DNA from: Candidatus Gastranaerophilales bacterium
Lineage (GTDB): Bacteria > Cyanobacteriota > Vampirovibrionia > Gastranaerophilales > Gastranaerophilaceae
Assembly: GCA_944326485.1 (NCBI GenBank)
Contig: CALVED010000002.1
Coordinates: 186,001 to 250,000 of the forward strand
DNA length: 64,000 nucleotides
Direction: 5' to 3'
Part shown: piece by piece, positions 33,098 through 33,317 of the stretch
How positions within the stretch are numbered: the stretch's first letter is position 1
Layout of the letters: each line of letters starts with the position of its first letter
Notes under the pieces: model-generated
What the model saw: only the letters and a program-made list of their open reading frames with translations
Told to the model about the DNA's origin: nothing
Database searches by the model: none
Position numbers and translations under genes: made by a program

Positions 33098-33171
33098 CGG
33101 GACGTAGCGCAGCCTGGTAGCGCACTACCTTGGGGTGGTAGGGGTCGCAAGTTCAAATCTTGTCGTTCCGA
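33098..33171 (+). tRNA. tRNA-Pro (anticodon GGG)
   Basis: A full cloverleaf folds by eye: acceptor CGGGACG with CGTTCCG, D stem GCGC/GCGC, anticodon stem CTACC/GGTAG with loop TTGGGGT (anticodon GGG at 33132-33134), a 5-base variable loop, T stem GCAAG/CTTGT with loop TTCAAAT, and discriminator A. The C1-G72 pair is typical of bacterial tRNA-Pro. CCA is not encoded. Upstream bases 33060-33070 are complementary to 33118-33128 in the D and anticodon arms, so a competing hairpin is possible in the precursor. Confidence 0.93.
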
Positions 33172-33182
33172 AATTTTTTATT

Positions 33183-33317
33183 GGGTCGCAAGTTCTTCCG
33201 TTTCGTGATTTTCTAAACAAAAGGAGAAAAGAAAATCATCTCACGGAACCCATCAAACTACGGTTCATAAATTCACCTTGTTTGATGTGAAATCTTGTCG
33301 TTCCGAAATTTTTTATT
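33183..33317 (+). repeat. Tandem duplicate of the tRNA-Pro 3' half, interrupted in its T-loop
   Basis: The tRNA segment 33142-33182 (variable loop to just past the 3' end, 41 bp) is repeated directly after itself. The repeat begins GGGTCGCAAGTTC (33183-33195), is interrupted by 94 bp, and resumes with 28 bases identical to 33155-33182 (33290-33317). The break lies exactly between TTC and AAAT of the T-loop. Confidence 0.85.
33196..33289 (+). mobile_element. 94-bp two-hairpin insert in the duplicated tRNA T-loop
   Basis: Hairpin 1 pairs TTCCGT (33196-33201) with ACGGAA (33243-33248) and TGATTTTCT (33206-33214) with AGAAAATCA (33230-33238). Hairpin 2 pairs CATCAAAC (33251-33258) with GTTTGATG (33280-33287). 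It has no coding capacity and sits at the classical T-loop integration point of tRNA-targeting elements. Calling it mobile is inference from its precise placement. Confidence 0.45.

Follow-up and report, generated by a model that had tools for sequence, protein, structure and literature searches.

Known repeats and integrative elements at tRNA genes

tRNA genes are classical docking sites of genomic islands and phages. Bacterial genomes also contain palindromic repeats such as the Rickettsia palindromic elements and REP/REPIN repeats. REP/REPIN depend on a Y1 (RAYT) transposase, and we know of no tie between either kind of repeat and the duplication of tRNA ends.

Islands at tRNA genes are accompanied by a tRNA fragment, which is either a 5′ fragment upstream or a 3′ fragment downstream of the gene. 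In the Islander set, whose members carry an integrase and passed a length filter of 2-200 kb, 3760 islands are 3′-sided and 159 of 3919 are 5′-sided (PMC4383910). The target can lie in the T-loop, as it does for phage Ms6 at a tRNA-Ala gene (PMC1762012). Mitochondrial genomes harbor double-hairpin, or repetitive hairpin-forming, elements. These are short, gene-less sequences of one or two hairpins that spread within a genome and occur in intergenic regions and RNA genes, no enzyme being known to move them (PMC10085805, PMC2800124). Finally, hairpins are known to arise and persist through template switching during replication (PMC8794818).

The tRNA-Pro(GGG) locus

The locus described here lies in a window of 64,000 nucleotides (the whole stretch of DNA analysed) within contig C2 of a 1.90-Mb Candidatus Gastranaerophilales genome (the source genome, G000). 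An intact tRNA-Pro(GGG) gene is bordered on each side by one unit that combines a copy of the adjacent tRNA end with hairpin-forming sequence. The features, all on the forward (+) strand, are as follows.

32894-32911, +: displaced copy of tRNA nt 1-18 (GGGACGTAGCGCAACCTG), start of the 5′ unit
32912-33053, +: y element (ACTCTGCCGAG ... hairpin ... GAGAGG), which holds the nested palindromic sequence z at ~32923-33021
33054-33096, +: second small hairpin (TAGCACGTAGTGCGCT, with an inverted D-arm segment) and the unit leader up to the tRNA
33097-33172, +: intact tRNA-Pro(GGG) gene (ARAGORN; 59.9 bits with the Rfam tRNA model)
33142-33154, +: A, native 5′ half of the T-arm (GGGTCGCAAGTTC), part of 33142-33182
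33155-33182, +: B, native 3′ half of the T-arm, acceptor strand and trailer (AAATCTTGTCGTTCCGAAATTTTTTATT)
33183-33195, +: second copy of A (13 nt, 100% identical), start of the 3′ unit
33196-33289, +: x, a 94-bp double-hairpin insert (H1, 33196-33248; H2, 33249-33289) with family members known elsewhere
33290-33317, +: displaced copy of B, the tRNA 3′ end and trailer (28 nt, 100% identical)

The order on the 3′ side is thus A B A x B. The original prediction, made from the letters of this DNA, described bases 33142-33182 as repeated from 33183, with the duplicate broken at TTC/AAA in the T-loop by a 94-bp insert composed mainly of two hairpins and too small for a gene. Its coordinates and its reading of the letters are right. 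The computed fold of x consists of two hairpins, with H1 arms at 33196-33214/33230-33248 followed by CATCAAAC...GTTTGATG, and the 135-bp 3′ unit is gene-less. The probability of the 28-mer repeat arising by chance at the observed spacing is ~5e-13, which excludes chance as its source. Among family members, substitutions in the H2 stem of x include paired ones (G-C to A-T, and GGC/GCC to GGT/ACC).

The structure upstream of the gene, which the original prediction did not contain, is a mirror of the downstream one. Here, tRNA nt 1-18 are split off in the D-loop by other hairpins (32894-33096), and the hairpin elements beyond the D-loop break extend to 33069. In relatives that lack z, the two parts of y adjoin.

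Both other tRNA-Pro loci of the source genome have the same layout. tRNA-Pro(TGG) carries a 5′ unit together with two full and one partial 165-bp 3′ units. The third locus appears to be split, with 5′ units at the end of contig C14 (26808-27109) and 3′ units at the start of C9 (1-240). Since these arrays lie at contig ends and the tRNA gene census contained no tRNA-Pro(CGG) gene, this gene is probably located in the assembly gap. At all three loci, z occupies an identical site within y, which indicates that units were copied between loci. A z-like palindromic sequence is also found just past an ATG start (ATGGCAGTTTGGAATGAAGTTGATTTT...) in contig C13 (~325-440), where it seems to interrupt a coding gene.

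Distribution of the family

Units are not confined to tRNA-Pro. Within the source genome, downstream copies of tRNA ends are also found at tRNA-Met, two tRNA-Ser, and three tRNA-Leu genes, and the same architecture recurs across the order, as a search for the insert at other tRNA genes (a check proposed with the original prediction) made plain. In a census of flanks, 8 of 46 tRNA genes in the source genome and 11 of 36 in G026 were bordered by copies of their own tRNA. The same was true of 12 of the 19 tRNA genes sampled from G045 and G140, a sample made up of the best-scoring tRNAs, and of none of 35 tRNA genes in two outgroup genomes. Most upstream copies begin at tRNA nt 1 and end at nt 12-20, while most downstream copies begin in the T-arm or acceptor region (nt 56-77) and reach the 3′ end. 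The tRNAs involved include those for Pro, Val, Leu, Lys, Met, Thr, Ile, Gly, Phe, Glu, Arg, and Ser, as well as others, and the units are often in tandem. Inserts of the family are gene-less and ~90-200 bp long. Since they carry copies of the tRNA's own ends, it is the copy that the insert breaks, and the real gene stays whole.

An exact pattern search for the y signature (ACTCTGCCGA-hairpin-GAGAGG) returned matches in 212 of the 241 Gastranaerophilales genomes sampled, representing 36 of 50 genera, with 86 matches in G140 and 44 in G045. A reversed control pattern gave no match in the same 241 genomes, and genomes sampled from other classes in the phylum did not yield the signature. Among the source genome and its relatives, matches to the 3′ unit were present in 30 of 78 genomes and to the 5′ unit in 40 of 78. 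Most contigs with the H2 motif of x are titled Candidatus Gastranaerophilales. A search of open-licence papers yielded nothing on tRNA repeats of Gastranaerophilales or on small inserts at tRNA ends. The family is large, lineage-specific, and apparently undescribed.

Several copies depart from the common layout. Copies of y that have no adjacent tRNA or tRNA fragment occur in intergenic, repeat-rich DNA in G045 (C12) and G164 (C1). In the source genome, a downstream tRNA-Met copy (C2) has its anticodon loop replaced by a hairpin (y, reversed), its T-loop by another, and apparently its D-loop as well. tRNA-Leu and tRNA-Ser of the same genome possess another type of insert (GGTTCGGCGC..GTGAGCAGAGGCTG...CCGTTTATCGCGAACGAGCAAG) between the tRNA and its displaced 3′ fragment, which implies that several hairpin families use one tRNA-end layout. 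The H2 core of x has an exact 30-bp match, outside any tRNA context, in DHEF01000045.1, a contig titled Chitinophagaceae UBA4857 and hence assigned to another phylum; binning error, transfer, and convergence are candidate explanations.

Polarity and structure of y

The orientation of y is strict. A tRNA-end fragment lies at its ACTCTGCC end in 78 of 78 scorable copies, and in 77 of them the intact tRNA is on the side of the GAGAGG end; the remaining copy was scored against the tRNA on its other side. Seventy copies are upstream of the gene (tRNA sense) versus eight downstream (antisense). Since the conserved ends can thus fall on either transcript strand, they are likely to matter at the level of DNA.

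The 10-bp stem of y is 91% paired among 39 distinct 41-nt sequences, with 9 of 10 pairs changed on both sides, versus shuffle means of 74% paired and 5.2 pairs changed on both sides. Such covariation could result from selection or from correction of palindromes by template switching (PMC8794818). The apices are more alike within genomes than between them (similarity of 0.77 versus 0.48; 0 of 500 shuffles), a pattern suggestive of y spreading or being converted within genomes. A possible k-turn (CUC-UGCC-GA / GA-GAG) was also considered. Just upstream of the tRNA, the motif TTGA[AC]AATT[AG]AATA is present in 36 of 58 5′ units from distinct contexts versus 42 of 3510 background 60-mers, and it might mark the element's other end. 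An inverted copy of the D-arm, specific to each locus, is found within the second hairpin of 5′ units.

Alleles, arrays, and cargo

Comparison of the same tRNA-Pro loci among relatives, likewise proposed with the original prediction, revealed empty sites, variation in copy number, and islands between units. The genomes compared are mostly fragmented assemblies in which arrays often lie at contig ends. At tRNA-Pro(CGG), G018 lacks the 5′ unit, while G021 and G036 possess a ~207-bp unit between two copies of TCGGGATGTAGCGCAGTTTG, and the native leader common to these alleles abuts the displaced copy. At tRNA-Pro(GGG), G024 lacks the 5′ unit and retains the 3′ unit (2 differences in 135 bp), beyond which the flank is more diverged than the unit itself. 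Empty and occupied alleles are therefore seen at two tRNA-Pro loci, with a direct repeat of 18-20 bp. Recombination between repeats could also yield empty alleles, so that the direction of change is unproven. In both comparisons the leader within the unit is non-native, that at tRNA-Pro(GGG) not being a copy of the native leader in G024. This argues against plain local duplication of the leader and tRNA end, an origin that was rejected for these two loci and that may still apply at tRNA-Val.

The presence of units is sporadic among close relatives, and the copy number of 3′ arrays differs between them. In G035, G020, and G008, kilobases of genes, toxin-like and nuclease genes among them, lie between x-type 3′ units or beside them; in G035 and G020 they follow an intact tRNA-Pro. 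Ten of the cargo proteins were tested, and none is an integrase. Among these ten are a zeta-toxin-like ATPase, an HTH regulator, PD-(D/E)XK proteins, a WYL regulator, a papain-fold toxin, and a DnaB_C protein. The position of these genes between 3′ units suggests that arrays may serve as docking or recombination sites.

Just past the 3′ array of tRNA-Pro(CGG) in G036 (C13:24000-24800) is a Y1 transposase gene, adjacent to a repeat whose ends resemble GTTGGGTT/AACCAAACCTACA. A repeat of a similar type follows the truncated arrays in G018 and G021.

Search for enzymes and carriers

A Y1 transposase was sought in G000, G026, and G035 with 0 matches. It was rejected as the driver, being absent from copy-rich genomes and not tracking the elements. 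Genes for tyrosine recombinases (PF00589) number only two each in G000, G045, G051, G031, and G033, which led to rejection of a dedicated tyrosine integrase. Those of the source genome, on contigs C4 and C7, are probably XerC and XerD, judging by their number and length. Since y-rich genomes can have just two tyrosine recombinases and no Y1 transposase, no enzyme was identified.

Lagging-strand insertion of single-stranded DNA, as with IS200 or integrons, was rejected as well. The y strand displays no replication bias, 12 of 22 and 5 of 7 sites being in positive GC skew in what is a small sample. As for carriers, the x pattern had 0 hits in viral contigs. Of the y matches in the viral loci examined, only two passed a loose hairpin test; these matches were taken as chance, and viral carriers were rejected. 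The best hits among phage and plasmid records span the tRNA gene only. A known RNA family was likewise rejected, as Rfam returned no family other than tRNA at gathering score; a search at relaxed threshold was also run.

Comparison with described systems

The units resemble tRNA islands and prophages in having a restored tRNA, an insert, and a displaced terminal fragment in the same orientation, and also in the T-loop break point and in forming tandem arrays. They differ in scale, with inserts of ~90-200 bp and units of 135 or ~207 bp that fall below the 2-200 kb range, and in the lack of any integrase gene inside them. Furthermore, they have hairpin ends, are confined to one order, and reverse the usual preference for the 3′ side (70:8 for y in favor of the 5′ side).

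Mitochondrial double-hairpin elements, compared by description, are alike in size and form only: both are gene-less, have two hairpins, and exist in several copies. Those of Gastranaerophilales reside in a bacterial chromosome and feature duplicated tRNA ends, fixed polarity, and tandem arrays. With the Rickettsia palindromic elements and REP/REPIN, as generally described, they have in common that they are small, dispersed, palindromic repeats of bacteria. In contrast to elements mobilized by Y1 enzymes (REPIN, IS200/IS605 derivatives), they occur in genomes without a Y1 gene (G000, G026, and G035), and the hairpin has no replication-strand bias in the small sample available.

Origin of the units

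The most economical reading, given roughly even confidence, is that the locus and its family are lineage-specific, non-autonomous hairpin inserts, anchored at the ends of tRNA genes and multiplied into tandem arrays. Each unit comprises a copy of a terminal tRNA segment (nt 1 to 12-20 at the 5′ end, or T-arm to end plus trailer at the 3′ end) and a double-hairpin element, placed such that an intact tRNA is kept and the terminal fragment displaced, with one unit per end at tRNA-Pro(GGG). The hairpin element may be a non-autonomous mobile sequence that lands in the loops of tRNA arms, in which case the duplicated tRNA end would preserve an essential gene. Recombination between the repeated ends could spread units between loci and build arrays, with room for cargo genes between the units of 3′ arrays, and the genome would need neither a dedicated integrase nor a Y1 transposase. 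In favor of this reading are the own-tRNA copies seen in genomes with y but not in the outgroups, the y pattern with its clean reversed control, the strict polarity, the two loci with empty and occupied alleles and a non-native unit leader, the identical site of z at three loci, the likeness of apices within genomes, the varying array length, and the cargo between 3′ units in three genomes. The insertion step and its enzyme are what we infer here. On the other side, the searches identified no enzyme, the 5′ tRNA copy varies in length (12 or 16-20 nt), unlike a fixed core or target duplication, the second hairpin of the 5′ unit, with its locus-specific inverted D-arm copy, looks locally made, and the empty alleles could also stem from loss through the repeats. 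A bolder proposal, to be taken as tentative and somewhat doubtful, is that these units constitute a previously unrecognized class of mobile DNA in prokaryotes. They would be double-hairpin cassettes that lack genes and insert at both tRNA ends with fixed polarity, restore the tRNA, and proliferate as tandem copies and from one tRNA type to another, and their 3′ arrays would dock cargo, all without a dedicated resident integrase.

The main rival involves no mobile element. Palindromes would be produced and kept perfect locally by template switching during replication, partial tRNA copies would arise through microhomology-mediated tandem duplication at tRNA hairpins, and only survivors with an intact tRNA would be selected. 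The documented ability of template switching to make and maintain hairpins (PMC8794818) fits this account, as do the locus-specific inverted D-arm segments, the failure of the Y1 and PF00589 searches to reveal an enzyme, and an 8-bp match (CACATTGA) common to leader and tRNA at the unit junction of tRNA-Val in G026. It is nevertheless unlikely, given that the ends of y are conserved over 36 genera with a polarity that holds in every scorable copy, that the unit leader is non-native at two loci, and that apices have become alike within a genome even where the tRNA loci are unrelated.

It is improbable that the units represent scars of tRNA-targeting integrative elements, or their minimal, non-autonomous relatives, served by XerC/XerD or by a tyrosine integrase located elsewhere or formerly present. 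The original prediction had taken this direction, proposing integration at a tRNA, duplication of the 3′ end by an integrase, and a minimal non-autonomous integrating element or remnant. The T-loop site and the layout of restored gene, insert, and displaced fragment do match tRNA integrants, following the configuration rule of islands (PMC4383910) at a target used by phage Ms6 (PMC1762012), cargo regions do lie between 3′ units, and relatives do display empty sites and differences in copy number. However, this is not a single scar or remnant, as the insert is one of hundreds of units and 5′ ends are occupied too. There is no integrase among the ten cargo proteins tested, the x pattern is absent from viral contigs, and only two tyrosine recombinases are present in the source genome, in G051, and in G045 with its 44 copies of y. 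The 5′-sided bias of y is also the opposite of that of islands.

Also improbable, lastly, are functional host RNA or DNA elements kept by selection (e.g., for tRNA processing or as decoys for tRNA-targeting agents). In their favor, the units are retained throughout one order, the 3′ unit in G024 is near-identical while the flank beyond it is more diverged, and the leader motif is enriched. Against them, y is sense upstream and antisense downstream, so that no single RNA strand retains its conserved ends, its presence is sporadic among close relatives, and Rfam offers no family but tRNA at gathering score.

Significance

An entire bacterial order seems to possess a small-scale counterpart, lacking genes, of the inserts that dock at tRNA genes; in some genomes it occupies dozens of sites, chiefly on the 5′ side that islands seldom use. 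The arrays leave half-tRNA pseudogenes that annotation misses and, since they are often found at contig ends, seem to interrupt metagenome assemblies at tRNA genes. Should the units prove mobile, they would offer a natural system for testing how a short hairpin can enter an essential RNA gene yet leave it intact, a question also posed by the hairpin elements of mitochondria.
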